Below are positions 1 to 15,104 of a stretch of 20,409 bases of DNA, one piece after another. The stretch spans positions 1 through 20,409 of the IMG/VR virus record IMGVR_UViG_3300043420_000087, one strand, 5' to 3'. Position numbers and translations under genes: made by a program. Source of the DNA: a virus. The notes below the pieces were generated by a model. It was not told where the DNA came from and did not search any database. It saw only the letters and a program-made list of their open reading frames with translations. How positions within the stretch are numbered: the first letter of the stretch is position 1; each line of letters begins with the position of its first letter.

Positions 1-233
1 CCACCGACTACGGAAGCACCTACACCTACACCTTCCTCTTTGAACATGACGATGGAACAGACACCACCGTCTACAGAGCAAGAAGCATGATGCTGCAGGA
101 TGTTGTCACAGACTTCGCTGCATTCCTACACGATGACCGTGTTGGTTTTAAAAATGATATTACCTTCGTACTGCATGACGGTACAGGTAACGATATGGTA
201 ATCAAATGCAAAGCCAAGACCATCACTGGATAG
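1..233 (+). CDS. C-terminal fragment of an unrecognised phage protein
   Basis: An open frame enters from the left edge (codons from base 3) and ends at TAG 231-233, giving the last 76 residues of a protein whose start lies outside the window. The fragment is rich in Asp, Thr and aromatic residues with alternating hydrophobic positions (for example ITFVLHDGTGNDMVIKCKAK near the end), which suggests a beta-rich fold. I do not recognise a family. It overlaps the next gene by 28 bases, the same dense packing as the rest of this arm. That this is coding is inferred from the uninterrupted frame up to the edge and the overlap; function is unknown. Confidence 0.6.
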   Translation, partial: TDYGSTYTYTFLFEHDDGTDTTVYRARSMMLQDVVTDFAAFLHDDRVGFKNDITFVLHDGTGNDMVIKCKAKTITG

Positions 234-4141: not shown

Positions 4142-4317
4142 TTCAATTTACACAAGAAGCAGTAGTAATTATTCTTGCTGTGTTTGCCGGTGCGCTGTGG
4201 TACACATGGGAGAAGGCAGCTAAGCTAGGATATGAAGCAGGATACGGTGACGCTTGCTATGACGTTGCTCATGGAAACATCACCGTATCTCTTAACCCGC
4301 CTAGTGAGATGGATTAG
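4138..4317 (+). CDS. Small single-pass membrane protein, TTG start
   Basis: A 59-residue frame runs from TTG 4138 to TAG 4315-4317. AAGGAGG (4124-4130), the strongest ribosome site on this arm, lies seven bases upstream of the TTG, and the start overlaps the previous stop as TTGA. Residues 5-24 are hydrophobic (TQEAVVIILAVFAGALWYTW), predicting one membrane span; the rest is soluble with a GYEAGYGDACYD segment. It is the last gene of the + strand block. Its stop codon overlaps the stop of the opposing 1164-residue virion gene by 4 bases. Function unknown. Confidence 0.72.
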   Translation: MIQFTQEAVVIILAVFAGALWYTWEKAAKLGYEAGYGDACYDVAHGNITVSLNPPSEMD

Positions 4318-4327
4318 TTTTCATCTC
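4306..4327. other. Hairpin at the convergence point of the two arms
   Basis: GAGATGGA (4306-4313) pairs with TTTCATCTC's last eight bases (4320-4327), six Watson-Crick pairs plus a G-U wobble and an A-T pair, around a 6-base loop that contains both stop codons. No U-run follows on either strand. It may slow converging polymerases or protect 3' ends, but a standard terminator is not supported. Confidence 0.4.
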
Positions 4328-7300
4328 CTCCCAGCCAGAAGTTATCTAGGATTTGCTTGGTTGATTTGATCGAAGGTACTTCATTGATTACCTTAGACCA
4401 GTCAGCCTGCTCATCCTTAGTTAACTGCTTCACTGTCTGCCCTGCTGCATCTACTAATGGTGCTGCCGGTGTAGCCATATTCTGAAGCGCACCCATTATA
4501 TCACCTCTCGCTAAGTAACGATCAGTAACATACTGGTTCATACCAAACACACCAAGTACAGACCACATAGCGCGATCAGTCAGACCCTCTACTGACATAT
4601 CAACATCTCTTCCGCGCAACCAATCCTTAACAATACCAACAGGTACACCTGCTGCAGCTAGGAAACTTGCTAATAAGAAAGCGTTCTTAGTAGCTGTGCC
4701 AACGTTACCCTTCGCAGCTTCCTGAACAATGTCCCTACGTACCAAGTCAATCTGTTTCAATGTGAAAGACTTAAGCATGTACAGCACACGTCCGTTAGGA
4801 GCATCAAGGTATTTCTGTGGCATCTCCAGTAGAGAGATCGGTTGAACATCAGACAGTTCATTGAATGCTAAGAACTTAGTGTTCTCTGTCTTGTTACCCA
4901 TCTTCAGGTCAGTGATCACACTATCAATATCATCACCGAATATGCCCTGCCAACGCTCACGGAACTTAGCCTCACCTGCTTTTGTTTTAACTAGCTTCTG
5001 ATTTTTCTTGATAGCTGCCGTCATCAACGTAGACTTACCAATGTTATCAACTGCTCGGAAACCAGTAGCAGTAAACAGTTTGTTCAATGCTTTAGATGTT
5101 AAGCGTTCGTTCTGTAACTCATGTGCAATAGTATGTTCAATACCCATCTCCATTGCAGTGTAGTCACGTTTACCAAACAATGAACCAATTGTCTCAGCAA
5201 TACCATTACGGTATAGAGATACACCAATATCCCCTAGCTGAGTCAATGCTGAGATAGGGTTACCTATAGTACCCATGTATCCTAAGTCACGTCCAGTTGA
5301 GAAGAACTTATTAGGCGCTTGCTCACCTTGAGTAAAACGAGAACGTAGCATTGAGTGTAGCTGACGCTGCTGCTGCGGTGTGAGGTTACCTGTTGCTGCA
5401 ATCTTAGCAATCAAGTGACCAATAGATTTCTCTGTGTCCACAGCACCAGTAGAAGTTTTACTTACACCAGTACGCCCAAAGAACTTCGCTTTCTCAATAG
5501 CATTGCGTGAGTTCTGAATGTAGTATGATAGCGATGTAGCTGGATCATCATAGTACTTCAACAACTCAGGATCAGTGATACGACTAATAGTACGCTGCTT
5601 AGCGTTAGGCATAATCGCAGTGTCACCCTTACGGAATACACCACGGATAACTTGATCTAGGATATCAGTTCTAATATCTTCTGGTATCTTGTTTACGTTA
5701 TCAATGCCATTCTTCTTAGCATAAACGTTAAGAGCCTCATCAAATAGACCAGCCTTCTGCTTACCTAAGTGCTCAAGCAATCCATCGAGATCCTTCACAC
5801 GACGAGGGAAGTAGTTAGGGATGTAGTGGAAGTCAATACCCAAGTCTTTAAACTCATCCTTGAACTCTTCCAATACTTTCTTAACTTCATAGAACTCTTT
5901 ACGCATCTCAGGTGGTAGCATCTTCATAACCGCAGCATGTTCACCATTGAATAACTTCATGGCAACATCTTCACGCATGTGTGTCGGAATGCGCTGGCTA
6001 AGGTGTTTCAAGAATGGTTCAATACGTGCTATGTGCTCTCCATTCTTAGTGCTGATGTTGAACTCAAGTCTACGAGCACGGCCAAGAATATCCTGACTGA
6101 TGTTACCTAGACGTGTAGACACTGAACCAAAGAATTGATCCAAGCCTTCAGCAAATTTACCTTGTTTACCTGAGGCTGCCTGTGCGCCCTGTGGTGGGAC
6201 GTTAGTTGCACCCTGTGGGGTAGCACCACCTGCAGGAGGAACGTTGCCTGTGCCTCCAAAGCGAGCCTGCTGCGCCTGATTGTATGCCTGTTGCTGAGCA
6301 GCTTGAGCTTGTTGCTGTGCTTTCTGCTGTGCTTCATACTCCTGACGGTTAACAGCCTTCTGTCTTATACCGCCTACACTCTCAACAGTACCTGCTGCAT
6401 TGCGTGGAGTATTAACATTTCTACGTAACTGCTGTGGGATCTGAAGATCAAGCGGTGCTGCAGCTTCTGGAGCTGGTTCAGGCTGACGAGGTGGAATCTG
6501 TGGTGCTTCGTTCATGACTGGCTTATCTAGTTTAGCTGCTGCTTCAGCCATACGCTGATCAACAACATCAGACTTACCATGATACTTAAGCTGAACGTAT
6601 TCCTTCACTGCAGACTCACGTTCTGCTGCACGCTTCTGGATTGTCTGGAGTGTTTCCAAATCCTGCTTAGCACGTAGACGTTCTTCACGTACCTGAGTAC
6701 CAGTACGCCCGCCTGTACCTGTCTTGCGCTTACCAGCAACAAGTTCTTCTAGCTGTTTCTGCCAGTAGTTTACCTTTGCTTTAAGACTCTTGATCTGGTT
6801 GGCATACTCTTCAGGTTTTTTAGGAGCAATGATACTTTTCATTGTAGTCTCAAGTTCTTTCAAACGATCAGACTTTAATCCTGTACCAATCTCAGCAAGA
6901 GCTTTGTTGTACTCATCCATACGTGCTGCGTTAGCTTCGTCAATGACATCACGCATGTTCATGTTGTCTGTTAGACGACGCTGTTCCGCAAGGTTTGCAG
7001 CAAAGTCTTTCTCAACCTGAGCACCAAACTCTGCATCTTTACGAGCAGCTTCAGCAATATCACCTTGCTTCTTGATAGCTTCTACTTCAGCCTGCTTAGC
7101 TAGATCAGCCTCAGCAGCCGCAGCATTCTCTGAACTCTTACGAGCCATCTGAGCTTCACGAGACTCAAGAGGGATAGCCTCATCAACCATCTGCTCAAGT
7201 TCAAGGCGCTGTTCTGGAGTAGCTTGTTCCCATTTAGACAAGAACTCTGCTTCAGTCTTAGCACCCAGCATTGTCATAAGTTTACCGACAGCACCACCAA

Positions 7301-7808
7301 GACCAACACCAAGACCACCAGCAGTCATGGCATTACGAATACGATCATCACCTAGCTGTTCATATACTGGCTGAGATGCACCGATTGCAGTACCAATAGC
7401 ACCAAACTCTAGTGCTGTACGTAGCACAGGGGATTGAACTGCTTTGAATGGTAGAGTGATAGCCTTGATTGCAGTTGCTGGAATAAACTCAGCCACAGCG
7501 CCAGCAAGGTATGCAGCTTGAGCACCTAAATCACCTTCACGGATCATACGATCACGCATTTCTTGTGACTGATCTTGCTCAATTATTCCTGCAGCCTCAG
7601 CTAAGCCACGTCCAGTATCAGTAAAACCTTTAGCAAACTGTAAGCGTCTGTTCATAGCAGACATTGGAATAACTTCACCACCTAAGCCAATGATAGCTTG
7701 GTTGATTGCTTCTTGATCTCCAGAGTCATAGAGATCCTTGCGAACCTCTATTCCATCTGGGAACACATCTTCTAATCCTGCAGGCGCAGGTATCTTAACG
7801 TATTCCAT
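4314..7808 (-). CDS. Large internal virion / ejection-type protein (1164 residues)
   Basis: The gene starts at ATG 7808 with GAGGTAAT as ribosome site. Layout: residues about 91-120 and 161-185 are Gly/Ala-rich hydrophobic segments able to enter a membrane; about 190-290 and 330-410 are charged coiled coils; about 434-450 is proline-rich; 486-550 is a Gln/Ala then Gly/Pro-rich linker (QAQAAQQQAYNQAQQA). From about 555 a large helical domain follows, with FHYIPNYFPRRV near 660 and a further hydrophobic segment about 1040-1062 before the end. It is the last gene of the virion block, after two smaller probable ejection proteins. Large, helical, membrane-seeking proteins in this place are usually carried in the capsid and injected with DNA. 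The function is inferred from layout and position; I recognise no catalytic motif. Confidence 0.7.
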   Translation of the reverse strand: MEYVKIPAPAGLEDVFPDGIEVRKDLYDSGDQEAINQAIIGLGGEVIPMSAMNRRLQFAKGFTDTGRGLAEAAGIIEQDQSQEMRDRMIREGDLGAQAAYLAGAVAEFIPATAIKAITLPFKAVQSPVLRTALEFGAIGTAIGASQPVYEQLGDDRIRNAMTAGGLGVGLGGAVGKLMTMLGAKTEAEFLSKWEQATPEQRLELEQMVDEAIPLESREAQMARKSSENAAAAEADLAKQAEVEAIKKQGDIAEAARKDAEFGAQVEKDFAANLAEQRRLTDNMNMRDVIDEANAARMDEYNKALAEIGTGLKSDRLKELETTMKSIIAPKKPEEYANQIKSLKAKVNYWQKQLEELVAGKRKTGTGGRTGTQVREERLRAKQDLETLQTIQKRAAERESAVKEYVQLKYHGKSDVVDQRMAEAAAKLDKPVMNEAPQIPPRQPEPAPEAAAPLDLQIPQQLRRNVNTPRNAAGTVESVGGIRQKAVNRQEYEAQQKAQQQAQAAQQQAYNQAQQARFGGTGNVPPAGGATPQGATNVPPQGAQAASGKQGKFAEGLDQFFGSVSTRLGNISQDILGRARRLEFNISTKNGEHIARIEPFLKHLSQRIPTHMREDVAMKLFNGEHAAVMKMLPPEMRKEFYEVKKVLEEFKDEFKDLGIDFHYIPNYFPRRVKDLDGLLEHLGKQKAGLFDEALNVYAKKNGIDNVNKIPEDIRTDILDQVIRGVFRKGDTAIMPNAKQRTISRITDPELLKYYDDPATSLSYYIQNSRNAIEKAKFFGRTGVSKTSTGAVDTEKSIGHLIAKIAATGNLTPQQQRQLHSMLRSRFTQGEQAPNKFFSTGRDLGYMGTIGNPISALTQLGDIGVSLYRNGIAETIGSLFGKRDYTAMEMGIEHTIAHELQNERLTSKALNKLFTATGFRAVDNIGKSTLMTAAIKKNQKLVKTKAGEAKFRERWQGIFGDDIDSVITDLKMGNKTENTKFLAFNELSDVQPISLLEMPQKYLDAPNGRVLYMLKSFTLKQIDLVRRDIVQEAAKGNVGTATKNAFLLASFLAAAGVPVGIVKDWLRGRDVDMSVEGLTDRAMWSVLGVFGMNQYVTDRYLARGDIMGALQNMATPAAPLVDAAGQTVKQLTKDEQADWSKVINEVPSIKSTKQILDNFWLGGDEN

Positions 7809-8592: not shown

Positions 8593-9369
8593 TTATGCTG
8601 TAGGCTTATTGTACTTGAGGAGGTTAGCACCAAGGCTACCAAACATATTAGCACTGTTCATGCCTGCTGCTAAGTTAGCCTGAGCTGCGCCCATACCACC
8701 AGCTAGTAGAGCATTAGCTTGGTTAGAACCTGCTGAGCTACCGTAGCCACCGAATGTACCACCAAGTTCTAGTGGAGTTAGACCCATCTGTTCAATACCC
8801 ATACCAGTCTGGAACAATCCAGTACCACGTGCAATAGCCTGATCAAGTTCAGTCTGTGCCTGTGTACGAGCCTGCTGAGCAAGAGCCTGATCAGCCTGTG
8901 AACGTGCTTGGTTAAGACCAAAGACATCTGGCTGTACCATGCCAGTACCTGCGCCAGCACCTTCACCTGCAAGACGCATACCTAGACGACCAGAACCAAA
9001 CAAGTCTTGCTGCATCTGTAGATTCTCAGCCTGACGCTGAGGAGCCATCATGCCCTGAATCTCATTGTAGTACTGTTGTGCATTAGCTGATGTGTCCATA
9101 GACTGAGGCAGTGCCTGAGCACCCATCCCCATCATCTGGTCACGCCATGCTTCCAGCGCAGGGTCAAGAATGTAGCCTGCTGTCTGTGTCTCAGGGTTAA
9201 AGTATGAGCTACCAAAGCCTGTTGTTACACTGTATGGTTTAAATGCTGCTGCATCTGCTGCAATCTTAGCAGCTTCTAATTGTGCTGCTGCTGCATCTGA
9301 AGCTGCTGAGCGAGCCTGTGAACTACCTAGCAGTCCAAGACCACCTGCAATCAATCCTGTCCAATCCAT
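8593..9369 (-). CDS. Probable internal virion / DNA-ejection protein (258 residues)
   Basis: The N-terminus is a Gly/Leu-rich hydrophobic stretch (MDWTGLIAGGLGLLGSSQA) followed by an Ala-rich helix (residues about 20-42). The middle is Gln/Met/Ala-rich and helical, and the C-terminal third alternates Gly/Ala/Asn/Met-rich segments (NALLAGGMGAAQANLAAGMN). A hydrophobic glycine-rich head followed by Ala/Gln helices is the usual look of podovirus ejection proteins that leave the capsid ahead of the genome. The start ATG shares a base with the preceding stop (TAATG), so it is translationally coupled to the glycine-rich fibre gene. The assignment is by composition and place. Confidence 0.68.
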   Translation of the reverse strand: MDWTGLIAGGLGLLGSSQARSAASDAAAAQLEAAKIAADAAAFKPYSVTTGFGSSYFNPETQTAGYILDPALEAWRDQMMGMGAQALPQSMDTSANAQQYYNEIQGMMAPQRQAENLQMQQDLFGSGRLGMRLAGEGAGAGTGMVQPDVFGLNQARSQADQALAQQARTQAQTELDQAIARGTGLFQTGMGIEQMGLTPLELGGTFGGYGSSAGSNQANALLAGGMGAAQANLAAGMNSANMFGSLGANLLKYNKPTA

Positions 9370-10298
9370 TAGTAAAACTCCTCTACAACAATAATTCCAT
9401 CACTACCTGCGCCACCAGTACCTGCTGATGAACCGTTACCAGAAGCACCACCGCCTCCAGATCCATAACATAAAGCATCATGTCCATTCACAATACTAGA
9501 TCCACCGTTGGCACCACCGCCACCGCCACCCCAGATAGATCCACCACCTGAAGAGCCAGCAGGTTCTCTGTATGCTCCTGAGCCACCGCCCATGCCACCT
9601 GATATGTTGTATGTACCGTTAGAACCTATTCCAGCAGCCCCGCCACTAGCAGCACCACCTGTAGCAGAACAATGAGCACCAAATGAAGAGTCACCGCCAG
9701 CTACACCAGCTGCACCACCTGTCCCTACTGTAACAGTCTCAGATGTTATAGAAGTTACATCAATAAATTTAATAGCTGTACCGCCAGCAGAACCACCAGC
9801 ACCTTGTGAATCAGATGATTGACCACCCCCGCCACCAGCTGTAACAATTACTTTAATTGTCTTACAACCAGAAGGTTTTGTCCATGTTCCGTCAGCAGTA
9901 AATACTTGTGTTGTAGGTGGCATTGCAATAGATGACGCAGCAATCCATGTAAAACCAGTAGCACCATCAGAAGTTAATACCTGACCTGACGTACCAGTAC
10001 CTAAACCATTTAAATGATCTTCATCAATAACATCAGCAGTATCAGTTAGACGATCTGCAATTGCTGTTTCAACATAAGCTGTTGTAGCAATCTGAGTAGT
10101 AGACGTACCATCTGTAGCTGTAGGAGCTGTAGGTGTACCACTCAATGCAGGAGAATCTAGGTTTGCTTTAGATACGATGGCAGTTTCAATTGCTGCCAAC
10201 TCATCATCAATCTCTGTACCTTTAACAATCTTTGCAGCATTACCGCTAGGTAACGTATCCTTTGATGCAAAGTCAGTCAATTTCGTATAATTTGCCAT
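9369..10298 (-). CDS. Glycine-rich tail fibre / receptor-binding protein
   Basis: The product has 309 residues. Residues 1-45 form a probable particle-attachment part (KLTDFASKDTLPSGNAAKI, then a short helix). Residues about 48-85 hold a motif common in tail fibres (SPALSGTPTAPTATDG, TTQIATTAYV). Near 130-152 is a beta segment (FTADGTWTKPSGCKTIKVIV) that often precedes glycine-rich fibre tips. Residues about 153-300 are almost half glycine, with many GGGG runs, as in adhesin tips built of packed polyglycine-II helices; such tips bind the host receptor. It ends in a short strand (GIIVVEEFY). It lies between the tail hub gene and ejection genes, and overlaps the next gene by one base. Confidence 0.83.
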   Translation of the reverse strand: MANYTKLTDFASKDTLPSGNAAKIVKGTEIDDELAAIETAIVSKANLDSPALSGTPTAPTATDGTSTTQIATTAYVETAIADRLTDTADVIDEDHLNGLGTGTSGQVLTSDGATGFTWIAASSIAMPPTTQVFTADGTWTKPSGCKTIKVIVTAGGGGGQSSDSQGAGGSAGGTAIKFIDVTSITSETVTVGTGGAAGVAGGDSSFGAHCSATGGAASGGAAGIGSNGTYNISGGMGGGSGAYREPAGSSGGGSIWGGGGGGANGGSSIVNGHDALCYGSGGGGASGNGSSAGTGGAGSDGIIVVEEFY

Positions 10299-10300
10299 AT

Positions 10301-12469
10301 CTAGTATGTCCTACCTTGTTTAACGTAGATGTCGAGTTTCTGAATAGATAACTCAGCACCTTCAATTGTTGCTTCAAATCCTACCTGTACTACGTTACCT
10401 GATCCACCTATAGGAGCACGTACCGTGTCAGACAATGTACCTACTGTATATTCAGCAGATGTATTGTACTCAGCTACACCATACTCAGCATTAGCTCGTG
10501 TCTCAATCGACAGAGGGAATGACTGATAAGCATCACTGTAATCATATCCTGCTTTAAGTACAAAGTCTTGACCACTACCACCAATCAATGTAATACCAAG
10601 ACGCTTCAAGTATTTAACTGCTGTTGAATTATCAAAGTCAAAGTAGTTGGTGTAGTATTTGATGGTGTAGCTATCACCGTTGTCAGTATATCCGTAGTAG
10701 CGACACAAGCCTTCACCGTTAGTGAAGTATAAGCCTTCATCTACAGACATCATGTTGCTGTGTATCTGCTTATCCCATAAGGTGACACGTGCTGAGCCAT
10801 CCTGTAGAGGACCACGCATATCAATACAGTACATACGCTGATACTCTGGAAGTAGCAATAAATAGAATGCTTCTTCTGGAGAGTAGACAGACTTGATTGT
10901 ATCCTTATTGTGCTGAGATACTTCACGTACCAAGTCATCACGGACGTTCTTAGTGATGTCACGCATCGGTAGAGACTTCTCTTGAATAACACGACCAAGA
11001 GAGCGTACACCTTCAGCAGATAAGAATAGAATGTCAGTACCGGTGTTCTGTACACTGTCACGTGCAATACAGCCAACACCAGAGATAACCTCGACTAAAC
11101 GTAGGTCAGCAGGGTCAAGTGTTTCACCTGAAGTCTTGTCACCATAGATAATGATGTTACGCTCACAGAAGATAATTAAGTTACCGTTCTGTGCACCTAG
11201 TGCTGTAATCCTATCGTTACCATTAACCAGTACAGATGAAATGTCTACGCTACCTGCAGTACCTAAGCCAAATGCAGTACCATCAAGTAGGTTAGACCAC
11301 CATACAGTTGTTTTATTATCTTCTGTATCTGCAACCCATAATCTACCGTAAGCAGATAAAACAGTGTTCCCTTGTGGTGGAGAACCTTTATCCCATGTAG
11401 CGGTAATAGTTCCTGTAGCATTAACTGTAGGCGCAGTATCTAATGTAAAGTAATACGAATTAGCATCAATTACAGTTATGGTAAACGTACCATTATATTC
11501 TGATTGAGAAGCACCACTAAACACCACTTCTGTACCATCTGCAAGTCTATGTGAGATGTGCGACACTGTAATCTTATCAACACTAACTGTCGTTGTTCCT
11601 GTAGCGTCTTGCGTAGGAATACTAGACATTTCGTAATAGTATTCATCATTAGACGTTACATGAATAATAAACGTACCGTTGTAACCTGCTTCATTAGCAC
11701 CATTAATTACAACTTCATCGCCTGTTTTAAAGCCATGAGCAGTATGCTGTACAAATGCTATTTTAGAATTAGCTAGTACTGTACCTGTAGCATCCTGTGA
11801 AGGAGAACTACTCATTGTGTACTCGTATGTATTATCGTCTAATACAGTTATGGTAAAAGTACCATTATATTCAGTTTCATTAGCACCGCTAATTACAACT
11901 TCATCTCCAGTAGCTAATCTGTGATTAAGATGTGTAATAGTAGCAACAGTACCTGAATGTGTAGCAGCAATAACACTAGTATTAAGTAATGTGACACTCC
12001 ACGTATTAAGCATTGTAACAGTAGCACTATTTGTTGCAGAAGTTACGTCCGTAATAATAGGAGGAGCTGAAGGTTGAAAGTAAACAGGCTCATAGCCACG
12101 TTGAAATAAATATGCAGCATCGTTTAGTGTAGCTGCTTGCCAGTTGCCGGTAGTGACTGTGTTAGCACCAGTGTATGTAACAGACTGCAATGTAGCAGAT
12201 CCATCGTAGATGTAGAAGCCAGTGTCGTTCCAACAACCAAAGTATTCTGTACCGTTGATGTCTAGGAAGCGGTGTGCACCTTGTAAATTAGACACACTAT
12301 CTGCCACTACCTGCCATCCTTTACGTGCGCCAAGACGACCAAACTTGTCTATGACGCAGTTATCAGCTTGTAGTGCAAAGCCTGCTGCCAAGGTTACGGA
12401 ACTCTCTTGAGTGTTTAGTCCGTAAAAGCCCGGAGCTGCAATGCTTGCACTCTGCAAAGGTTTAGTCAT
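10301..12469 (-). CDS. Tail hub/tube-type structural protein with three tandem beta repeats
   Basis: The 722-residue protein begins with a segment I associate with podovirus tail tube/stabilisation proteins (APGFYGLNTQESS, then NCVIDKFGRLGARKGW). Residues about 173-354 hold three copies of a 62-residue beta repeat (separate entry). The rest resembles a beta-propeller-like body: repeated short strands, with GRLWVADTEDNKTTVWWS and FLSAEGVRSLGR motifs, and a C-terminal beta domain ending in KLDIYVKQGR. It directly follows the adaptor gene (TAATG one-base overlap) and precedes the fibre, matching the order adaptor, tail tube/hub, fibre, ejection proteins. The family name is a judgement from pattern and context; the precise homologue (P22 gp10-like or T7 gp12-like) is not decided. 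Confidence 0.75.
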   Translation of the reverse strand: MTKPLQSASIAAPGFYGLNTQESSVTLAAGFALQADNCVIDKFGRLGARKGWQVVADSVSNLQGAHRFLDINGTEYFGCWNDTGFYIYDGSATLQSVTYTGANTVTTGNWQAATLNDAAYLFQRGYEPVYFQPSAPPIITDVTSATNSATVTMLNTWSVTLLNTSVIAATHSGTVATITHLNHRLATGDEVVISGANETEYNGTFTITVLDDNTYEYTMSSSPSQDATGTVLANSKIAFVQHTAHGFKTGDEVVINGANEAGYNGTFIIHVTSNDEYYYEMSSIPTQDATGTTTVSVDKITVSHISHRLADGTEVVFSGASQSEYNGTFTITVIDANSYYFTLDTAPTVNATGTITATWDKGSPPQGNTVLSAYGRLWVADTEDNKTTVWWSNLLDGTAFGLGTAGSVDISSVLVNGNDRITALGAQNGNLIIFCERNIIIYGDKTSGETLDPADLRLVEVISGVGCIARDSVQNTGTDILFLSAEGVRSLGRVIQEKSLPMRDITKNVRDDLVREVSQHNKDTIKSVYSPEEAFYLLLLPEYQRMYCIDMRGPLQDGSARVTLWDKQIHSNMMSVDEGLYFTNGEGLCRYYGYTDNGDSYTIKYYTNYFDFDNSTAVKYLKRLGITLIGGSGQDFVLKAGYDYSDAYQSFPLSIETRANAEYGVAEYNTSAEYTVGTLSDTVRAPIGGSGNVVQVGFEATIEGAELSIQKLDIYVKQGRTY
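11408..11953 (-). repeat. Three tandem copies of a 186-bp (62-residue) beta-repeat
   Basis: Within the tail protein, residues about 183-230, 245-292 and 307-354 share the pattern H-(R/G)-(L/F)-x-(T/D)-G-x-E-V-V-(I/F)-(S/N)-G-A-(N/S), then E-Y-N-G-T-F or G-Y-N-G-T-F, two Val-rich strands, Y-x-Y/F and D/N-A-T-G-T. The spacing is exactly 62 residues in both intervals. The copies have diverged at the DNA level, so the duplication is old. Small Ig-like or similar beta modules of this type are surface decorations. Confidence 0.85.
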
Positions 12470-13116
12470 TATACTTCCTGCCAGATTAAGTTCTCAGGAT
12501 TCTTACCAGCATCCATTGCAATATAATCATTCAATGAACGCTGTGCTGTAGCATATGCTGACGATGCTCCAACACCACCGTCTTCACCACGCTCTTCAAT
12601 AGCCTTAGCATATGCAAGCATAAGGATAGGACGTGTAGGTAGTAGTGTTACATCGCTGTCAGCAGTTAAGTCAGGCTGACGATGAATGATATTAAAGCGT
12701 AGTGTATATACTCCATTAGGTATTGGGTATACATCTACAATTGCTTCACCGTCTTCAGTAGTTCCGTTAAAACTGTAGTAATAAGGATCTGCGGTAGTAA
12801 CAGGATCATGCATAAACCATTGATTCATTTCTGCTTCACTAGCACGACGCATAACAACATTAGTTGTGTCGTTTAAAGCATCAATCAATTCAACGGTTTG
12901 ATCTGTACCAGACAAGATGTAAGAGAAAGCATTAGCAGAAGTTGTAGCAGTAATTGTATTCTTGATAGAACTCCAATCCCAAGCGTTTTCTACTTCGTCC
13001 TTAGCATCATTAATAATTGTTGCTATGAGTTTAGAGTAAGAGTTTTCGTTAATGGTTGATACTTCACGCTCTCTAAGACGTTTAAGTATGTTATTAACCA
13101 TTTGAAGATATGTCAT
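12469..13116 (-). CDS. Head-tail adaptor / tail-tube-A-like protein
   Basis: The product has 215 residues. It opens with two helices (TYLQMVNNILKRLREREV; SKLIATIINDAKDEVENAWDW) followed by alternating strands and a C-terminal helical part (LPTRPILMLAYAKAIEERGE, ATAQRSLNDYIAM). A helix ending in NAWDW before a beta part is the layout of adaptor proteins that form the ring below the portal in podoviruses (P22 gp4 / T7 gp11 type). Its stop overlaps the start of the tail hub gene (TAATG). TAAGGA lies upstream of the ATG, and a good sigma70-like promoter lies in the 62-base gap before it. Family assignment is from layout and context. Confidence 0.7.
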   Translation of the reverse strand: MTYLQMVNNILKRLREREVSTINENSYSKLIATIINDAKDEVENAWDWSSIKNTITATTSANAFSYILSGTDQTVELIDALNDTTNVVMRRASEAEMNQWFMHDPVTTADPYYYSFNGTTEDGEAIVDVYPIPNGVYTLRFNIIHRQPDLTADSDVTLLPTRPILMLAYAKAIEERGEDGGVGASSAYATAQRSLNDYIAMDAGKNPENLIWQEV

Positions 13117-14207: not shown

Positions 14208-14602
14208 TATTCTTTACCTTCTTTCTCTTCCTCAAAGATGTCACGGTCAGTCTTCATGACAGTGTTACCTTTATTAATGAGGACATTATCCTTAGTGATA
14301 TCTAGTGTGTATGGATCAGACTCAGCAGACTTAACACGTAACAGGTCAAGCATTTCTTTAGCTACAGAAGTCATAGGATCTTCCTTCTCAGCACCAGACT
14401 GACTCATCATTATATCTAATACAGTCTTACCGATCAATGTAGAGATAGATGATACTACTGCTACAAGTCCAGCATCTACATTAGGAATCATGATCGTGTA
14501 AATTACTGTACCCAATGCAGCCAAGGCTACCATTGAGTTGAGAAAATAAACCACCAGACTATTGCGAAGTTGTGGCTCTTCTAAGTTAACTTTATTATTC
14601 AT
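14207..14602 (-). CDS. Two-span membrane protein, holin-like
   Basis: The 131-residue product has two hydrophobic segments, about residues 14-38 (SLVVYFLNSMVALAALGTVI) and 43-64 (AGLVAVVSSISTLIGKTVLD), then a soluble, highly charged C-terminal half ending in FEEEKEGKE. Two spans with a charged tail fit a holin or another small inner-membrane phage protein. It overlaps the Endonuclease VII-type gene by 8 bases upstream and the next gene by one base. Placement in a run of small membrane proteins supports a lysis-related role (inference); no family is recognised with certainty. Confidence 0.6.
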   Translation of the reverse strand: MNNKVNLEEPQLRNSLVVYFLNSMVALAALGTVIYTIMIPNVDAGLVAVVSSISTLIGKTVLDIMMSQSGAEKEDPMTSVAKEMLDLLRVKSAESDPYTLDITKDNVLINKGNTVMKTDRDIFEEEKEGKE

Positions 14603-15104
14603 AACTTACACCTTCATTAATTAAATATTGGATAGCTTTATACATAACGTCTATATCATCGTTATAGCTACCTAAGGCAGTATTACAGTTACCACATAAC
14701 AAACCCCTAACTTTACCTGAGGAGTGACAGTGATCTACACACAATCCTTTAGCAAACTCATCAGAATGTCGATTACAAATAGCACATTTACCTTCTTGTT
14801 GACTATACATTTCGTTATAATCGTCTAAAGCAATTCCGTATGCTTTCTGTAATGTTTGATTCTTTATATGTTTCTGATACTCTTTAAACTTAGCCCCACC
14901 TTTTCTAAATGGTTTCTGTCTTTCACTGCTAATCCTAGAAGAACATTGTTTACATTTGTTTGCTCTGCCGTACTTACCATTAGGATGCGCTTCAAACAAC
15001 TCTAAAGATTCTTCATCATGAGCTTCCATTCCACAATGATTGCATTTCCTGAAAGGCGCAGAATTACAGCTGTCTTTGAGCTGGTTGTCTGATCCACCTT
15101 TCAT
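14595..15104 (-). CDS. Endonuclease VII-type HNH endonuclease
   Basis: The product has 169 residues. The C-terminal half is the recombination endonuclease VII fold: C107-x2-C110, then D124-H125-C126-H127, then R133-G-L-L-C137-x2-C140-N141, where the cysteines bind zinc and DHxH/N form the beta-beta-alpha metal active site. The N-terminal part adds C21-x2-C24 and C51-x2-C54, a second zinc-binding unit, and a basic helical linker (KPFRKGGAKFKEYQKHIKN). The true endonuclease VII resolves branched DNA in packaging, but many small proteins of this type are free-standing homing nucleases. Here it interrupts a run of small membrane genes, overlapping its neighbours by 4 and 8 bases, which favours a mobile origin. 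Confidence 0.87.
   Translation of the reverse strand: MKGGSDNQLKDSCNSAPFRKCNHCGMEAHDEESLELFEAHPNGKYGRANKCKQCSSRISSERQKPFRKGGAKFKEYQKHIKNQTLQKAYGIALDDYNEMYSQQEGKCAICNRHSDEFAKGLCVDHCHSSGKVRGLLCGNCNTALGSYNDDIDVMYKAIQYLINEGVSYE

Follow-up and report, generated by a model that had tools for sequence, protein, structure and literature searches.

The window analysed here, the whole 20,409-nt stretch of a 20.4-kb virus record (IMGVR_UViG_3300043420_000087), encodes on its minus strand a protein of 722 amino acids (aa; window 10301-12469) that holds three tandem modules of 62 residues. By its predicted structure this protein is a podophage tail hub/nozzle, and the insert that the modules form is an optional, exchangeable and self-contained cassette of FCCH barrels in the nozzle propeller. 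As for its role, I put a probability of roughly 55% on the reading that the barrels would make up the distal, outward face of the tail tip that meets the cell, where they may position or trigger the nozzle.

A tandem barrel array in a tail nozzle propeller

The modules occupy aa 173-234, 235-296 and 297-358 of the open reading frame (ORF), which corresponds to 11768-11953, 11582-11767 and 11396-11581 of the window (minus strand). YNGTF occurs at aa 201, 263 and 325, DATGT at aa 226 and 288, and NATGT at aa 350, so that the module spacing is exactly 62 residues. A preliminary description made from the letters of the stretch had named three copies at this spacing, and both the motif positions and the self-alignment bear it out. 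The common EYNGTF/DATGT pattern it reported was partly right: YNGTF is present in all three copies, but copy 2 reads GYNGTF and copy 3 reads NATGT. Its limits of 11408-11953 had the start of the array correct but fell four codons short of its end, as the modules reach 11396.

An ungapped self-alignment of the protein at lag 62 scored 300 (BLOSUM62), while no other lag between 50 and 79 exceeded 26 and none of 200 residue shuffles (lags 30-199) exceeded 50, which rules out a chance origin of the repeat. It was visible in the DNA too, with 69-nt copies at spacings of 186 and 186 whose identity to the reference copy was 65% and 77%. A hidden Markov model (HMM) built from 12 modules of four phages scored the three window modules with 102-113 bits in a six-frame scan, and the sole other row with E < 1 in the window was a 7.1-bit match (E 0.078) in a neighbouring gene. 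Modules 2 and 3 are delimited by self-alignment and this HMM, and module 1 is recognised by the HMM and by Pfam. The whole insert amounts to ~215 aa (approximately aa 143-357, window 11399-12043), since the window protein has 722 aa compared with 507 aa in the module-less relatives L006-L009. It is longer than the modules because a leading two-stranded segment (~aa 146-172, window 11954-12034; predicted strands 6-18 and 20-32 of the array model described below) accompanies arrays of three and four modules.

Pfam matched module 1 to E1_FCCH (PF16190) over aa 172-218 with 34.6 bits, above the cut-off of 29.5, and found no other family above cut-off in the 722-aa protein. Among relatives, L091 reached 45.9 bits with the same family, and the single module of L110 stayed below cut-off with 17.4 bits. 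The Pfam endosialidase barrel (PF12195) scored 16.7 bits in the window against a cut-off of 35, and 26.4 bits in L091. The array was modelled from aa 141-365 with a 29-row alignment and reached a predicted local distance difference test score (pLDDT) of 93.7 and a predicted template modelling score (pTM) of 0.82. In structure comparisons with VIA, the array aligned with the E1 FCCH domain of UBA6 (7pvn_A) at Z 10.4 and 2.1 Å over 75 residues and with the phi92 endosialidase (4hiz_C) at Z 9.1 and 27% identity, and module 1 aligned with the K1F endosialidase barrel (3gvk_A, residues 425-506) at Z 9.2 and 1.7 Å over 74 residues. All rows besides these had Z values of 7.4 or lower: among the rows listed, the best folds for the array are FCCH and endosialidase barrels, with an immunoglobulin-like (Ig-like) or other unlisted family still conceivable. 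E1 enzymes and endosialidase also ranked first in a Foldseek search of the PDB. By sequence, the profile of the array reached E 0.001 with the phi92 endosialidase (4hiz), compared with E 0.46 for an E1 enzyme.

Judged by these models and profiles, the modules are E1_FCCH-type beta barrels. The domain is native to E1 enzymes, whereas here it stands in tandem copies in a virion protein without E1 context; Pfam detected neither the adenylation nor the catalytic cysteine domains of a ubiquitin-activating enzyme E1 above cut-off. The endosialidase barrel likewise sits within a propeller protein, but the window module falls below its Pfam cut-off, and polysialic-acid binding is a feature of K1F. In a viral structure library, some uncultured-phage proteins were already named for FCCH or endosialidase-barrel domains. 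The 75 residues aligned with E1 FCCH span model residues 5 to 221 and so extend across the array from its first strand to its last, which would place both array ends in one barrel and hence near each other. The ends therefore appear, on the model, to meet as a loop insert needs, an idea of ring closure that is drawn from the ranges reported by VIA (5..221 for those 75 residues, for example) and not from a residue-level alignment.

The full-length protein was modelled with AlphaFold2 on a 24-row family alignment, with a mean pLDDT of 71; most propeller blocks scored 72-93 and the modules 52-69, with lower values at the two ends. Foldseek returned the nozzles of the podophages A4, SU10 and T7 as best rows. 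VIA gave Z 25.8 with the Pa223 nozzle (427 residues, 4.3 Å), Z 24.6 with P22 gp10 (426 of 471 residues, 4.6 Å), Z 24.1 with the SU10 nozzle and Z 23.8 with crAss001, while unrelated propellers in the same list had Z values up to 21.8 over fewer than 300 residues. Propeller and platform were matched over most of the chain (~427 residues), and the family profile reached the A4 nozzle by sequence (E 5e-4). On the strength of the model, the protein is a tail hub/nozzle of podophage type that combines a propeller and a platform domain, which agrees with the hub-type protein named in the preliminary description. A phmmer search of the PDB with the whole protein gave no relevant match (best E 0.31), and six annotated phage records matched it at 21-26% identity: Slicky01, HTVC115P, CRP-3, CRP-738 and two Rhizobium phages. 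The PHROG label 'amidase / lysis' (phrog_5107) was rejected as an annotation slip, as the fold is that of a nozzle and no amidase domain was found; annotations copied from this label are probably wrong for the nozzle family.

In the full model, eight strands (64-141) precede the insert. Behind it (367-611) the strands fall into four groups of four and a further group that has only two long ones (480-490). If the two-stranded group is taken as a blade, the propeller has seven blades and the insert most likely lies in a loop between blades 2 and 3 by strand count. Aa 1-140 (12050-12469), which are conserved in the family alignment, would then hold the N-terminal platform strands and the first two blades, and aa 359-722 (10304-11395) the remaining blades and the C-terminal platform domain according to alignment and model. 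The repeats had previously been placed ahead of the propeller body, which does not agree with the model, where eight strands from the N-terminal part are included in the propeller.

Known nozzles carry other domains in comparable places. The crAss001 muzzle gp44 has a seven-bladed propeller, as counted here, but carries an Ig-like domain and a large 'crass' domain instead, with IG1 placed between blades 2 and 3 (PMC10172136). T7 gp12 also has seven blades, and a loop of blade 3 leads to a beta barrel at the distal nozzle tip; this is a single barrel with a helix replacing one strand, and the excerpt of the source mentions no FCCH similarity (PMC6702177). The SU10 nozzle (Kuravirus; 7z4b, 7z47) likewise combines propeller and platform, but its own four inserted domains are Ig-like and not FCCH barrels. 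Ig-bearing tail proteins from other phages match SU10 from residue ~110-130 to 372, so that the N-terminal sequence ahead of the SU10 insert is about as long as that ahead of the insert here (142 aa), and the strand count made here would fit the description of the SU10 nozzle. The inserts of SU10 and crAss001, taken to occupy the same place, are described as sitting at the tail tip or beneath the propeller. P22 gp10 and Pa223 have the core fold in common with the window protein over ~427 residues, but their chains of 471 and 512 residues are too short for a 215-aa insert and resemble the module-less relatives. By analogy, the insertion site is probably one already known to take up distal domains of nozzles, and calling the repeats unusual for this type of protein was too strong, as beta domains at this site are already on record. 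What is new at this site is the type of barrel and its on/off polymorphism; judged by titles and the starts of abstracts, the papers listed in the literature searches made describe neither FCCH barrels in phage nozzles nor their presence, absence and exchange.

Gain, loss and exchange of the cassette

Relatives were collected in four scans of virus contigs, two of which kept the best 80 of 155 and the best 80 of 249; three scans used module or module-bearing queries, so that the census is enriched for carriers. It comprised 141 complete hub ORFs or 96 distinct sequences, and 95 after removal of the window itself (L001). Among these 95 listed, 84 hubs had no module at this site, four had one, six had three and a single hub had four. 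The suspicion that copy number may vary was hence correct, and a state in which all homologues keep three copies was not found: close relatives are among the hubs without modules, which together with the variable copy number rules out a conserved three-copy fold element. Outside the census, 14 rows were partial hub ORFs, with three modules in L005, L165 and L088/L223 (one contig) and at least one in L093, and L035 had no intact hub frame. No two-module hub was found among the carriers listed, a weak negative given the few independent lineages.

Modules are not confined to the propeller loop. The best E1_FCCH stretch of L086 and L097 is C-terminal (aa 712-769 and 612-674; whole-protein E 1e-18 and 2e-13) and, going by sequence, is a second insertion site. 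L027 (4349-6343), L029 and L043 have a different insert of more than 100 aa after the N-terminal segment (~aa 57). This insert looked FCCH-like by eye, but it was not recognised by the module HMM, nor by Pfam in L027. L031 and L043 also have a C-terminal insert that the module HMM does not recognise.

Presence and absence can be compared directly between L163, with four modules, and L172, with none: the stretch between the hub flanks measures 884 bp in the former and 32 bp in the latter, and these DNA flanks are 90.7% (1257 bases) and 87.6% (1259 bases) identical. The two diverge further downstream of the hub, where the fibre-like region differs (L163 5079-6191, L172 2557-3652); it does not differ between L163 and L169. 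L163 and the module-less L169 have both downstream genes in common, at 84.5% DNA identity over 2.4 kb. On a core tree of 68 representatives, at least seven changes between presence and absence were counted by a quick method with some forks unresolved, and the nearest rows to the window by path were the module-less L008, L006 and L009.

Exchange was evaluated in eight three-module hubs by comparing trees of the core, of modules 1-2 and of module 3 with the approximately unbiased (AU) test. The lineages compared were 61-74% identical in the core. L002 and L004 were 92% identical (aa) in the core and 72% in modules 1-2. For the window and L002, identity was 71% in the core and 89% in modules 1-2. 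Modules 1-2 were compatible with the module 3 tree (p 0.19) and rejected that of the core (AU p 0.0001), the core rejected both module trees (p 0.0004 and 0.006), and module 3 rejected both other trees (p 0.008 and 0.015). The conflicting trees indicate that the cassette, or parts of it, was exchanged between virus lineages by recombination, a conclusion read from sequence comparison. In six lineages, 17 of the 18 modules were closest, among the modules of the other lineages, to one at the same position. Such position-specific classes imply that the tripling predates these phages.

The module was also found outside the close hub family, among 70 ORFs that did not have both core parts. Of these 58 were scanned, leaving out L093 (a partial hub), L155 (a fragment) and ten ORFs judged by length and score to be repeats of scanned ones. 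Pfam assigned 25 of the 58 to Baseplate_J and six to DUF3383; PHROG assigned 25 to baseplate wedge, 15 to phrog_5107 (more distant hub-like proteins), six to tail sheath and one to an internal virion protein. Only four of 50,697 annotated phage records matched the array at E 0.001, one of them named tail spike. Many ORFs of 435-460 aa in the range L096-L161 have one module at ~residues 140-220, and one of them, L106, matches Baseplate_J. Together with the 25 Baseplate_J matches among the 58 ORFs, this suggests that Baseplate_J-type ORFs may have a favoured module site as well. Domain shuffling is generally established for phage tail proteins (PMC10684548); neither 'FCCH' nor 'nozzle' occurs in the main text of that source.

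Proposed role and competing explanations

In the proposed mechanism, the FCCH cassette, joined by shared long strands, would sit in a propeller loop at the slot of podophage distal domains, and its barrels would form the distal outer face of the tail tip. There they may contact the cell surface and help to position the nozzle or trigger its opening, while the propeller would continue to gate the DNA. Because the cassette is self-contained, with ends that appear to meet in one barrel, it could be gained, lost, resized and exchanged without disturbing the DNA-gating propeller, and its swapping between lineages suggests tuning of how the tail tip meets the host cell. The exact blade position, the location at the tail tip, the contact with the cell and the triggering role are all inferred, and exposure of the cassette at the tail surface is plausible by analogy.

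Several points weigh against this reading. Exposure is carried over from distant homologues with 10-14% identity, and the absence of the cassette from 84 of 95 hubs makes it dispensable for nozzle function as such. The blade count comes from a model of moderate mean pLDDT with one poorly formed blade after the insert and with its lowest inner values in the modules, and strand 52-56 could shift the blade position if counted to the propeller. Comparing the hub family with the SU10, P22 and T7 nozzles by hhalign gave no significant match; site mapping on these nozzles thus failed, and the insertion site rests on the strand count. Finally, Foldseek found no match of the array in the PDB at E ≤ 0.001, its best value being E 0.003.

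Sugar binding by the modules is possible by analogy, and a glycan-binding array of lectin-like barrels, with three to four per subunit of a hexamer and avidity for surface polysaccharide, is a tentative alternative. The profile match to the phi92 endosialidase, the close fit of module 1 to the K1F barrel and the exchange of the cassette between lineages would all suit it. The PF12195 score is below cut-off, however, and E1 FCCH, which is not known as a lectin domain, fits equally well. The YNGTF of module 1 lies inside the stretch matched by E1_FCCH, so the motif marks the fold and not a sugar site, and the H, Y-N-G and T/F positions recur in the 58 module ORFs outside the close hub family, including sheath and baseplate proteins, in a scan that sought such strings. 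The K1F barrel itself cuts both ways: it is described as one of three sialic-acid sites and as a hotspot of host discrimination, with loops (S460 named) involved, but also as largely permissive to mutation (PMC12632334). A bolder variant, in which a ring-closed FCCH set is an exchangeable adhesin within the DNA gate and ligand contact directly opens the channel, seems unlikely. If true, it would make the nozzle itself, and not the fibres alone, a receptor sensor, and its closed-ring topology would explain why carriers have one, three or four modules and none has two.

A mechanical spacer without a specific ligand, which would make the nozzle tip longer or stiffer or hold adjacent subunits together, is a little more doubtful than the glycan array. 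SU10 nozzle domains are described as wrapping round the tail and stabilising it, the modules have a well-defined predicted order (pTM as above) and the copies are position-specific; but close relatives live without the array, and swapping with a separate phylogeny better suits an outward interface than one turned towards the nozzle's own subunits. That the cassette docks a short tail fibre or spike and is exchanged along with it is improbable. Domain 4 of the SU10 nozzle reportedly contacts the short fibre and its dock loop, a tail-fibre-like gene with a glycine-rich C-terminal domain (Pfam and PHROG; 9369-10298, minus strand) directly follows the hub, and L172 and L163 differ in their downstream genes as well as in modules; yet L163 and L169 differ in modules with the same downstream genes, so the fibre need not change. 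Least probable of all is a neutral or selfish barrel that folds by itself, is tolerated in loops of virion proteins and hence spreads. It would account for the presence in unrelated virion proteins and the patchy distribution, but the three module classes stay distinct across lineages that have diverged in the core. The open frames carry no weight here, as the census took intact ORFs.

A cell-facing outer surface remains the preferred reading of the barrels. Comparisons of distal nozzle domains are usually limited to very distant short-tailed phages, and the same nozzle with and without the cassette, in hubs with flanks ~88-91% identical, makes a role in adsorption testable in isolation. The FCCH barrel would be a second domain type at a slot so far described with Ig-like domains, and the module is seen as an exchangeable component in virion proteins of several kinds.

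Neighbouring genes

Upstream of the hub in transcription lies a probable head-tail adaptor gene (12469-13116, minus strand), named so by its position; its match is phrog_10775 'tail protein' and not a named adaptor model. CRP-3 likewise has a 229-aa gene between its coat and hub genes. An Endonuclease VII gene (PF02945, E 3e-25; 14595-15104) is located among the virion genes between capsid and hub. The minus-strand genes end with an ORF of 1164 aa (4314-7808), for which neither Pfam nor PHROG gave a match at E 0.1. On the plus strand, 206-2936 carries genes with matches to families labelled NAD synthetase / homing endonuclease, metallo-phosphoesterase, nucleotide kinase and HNH endonuclease.
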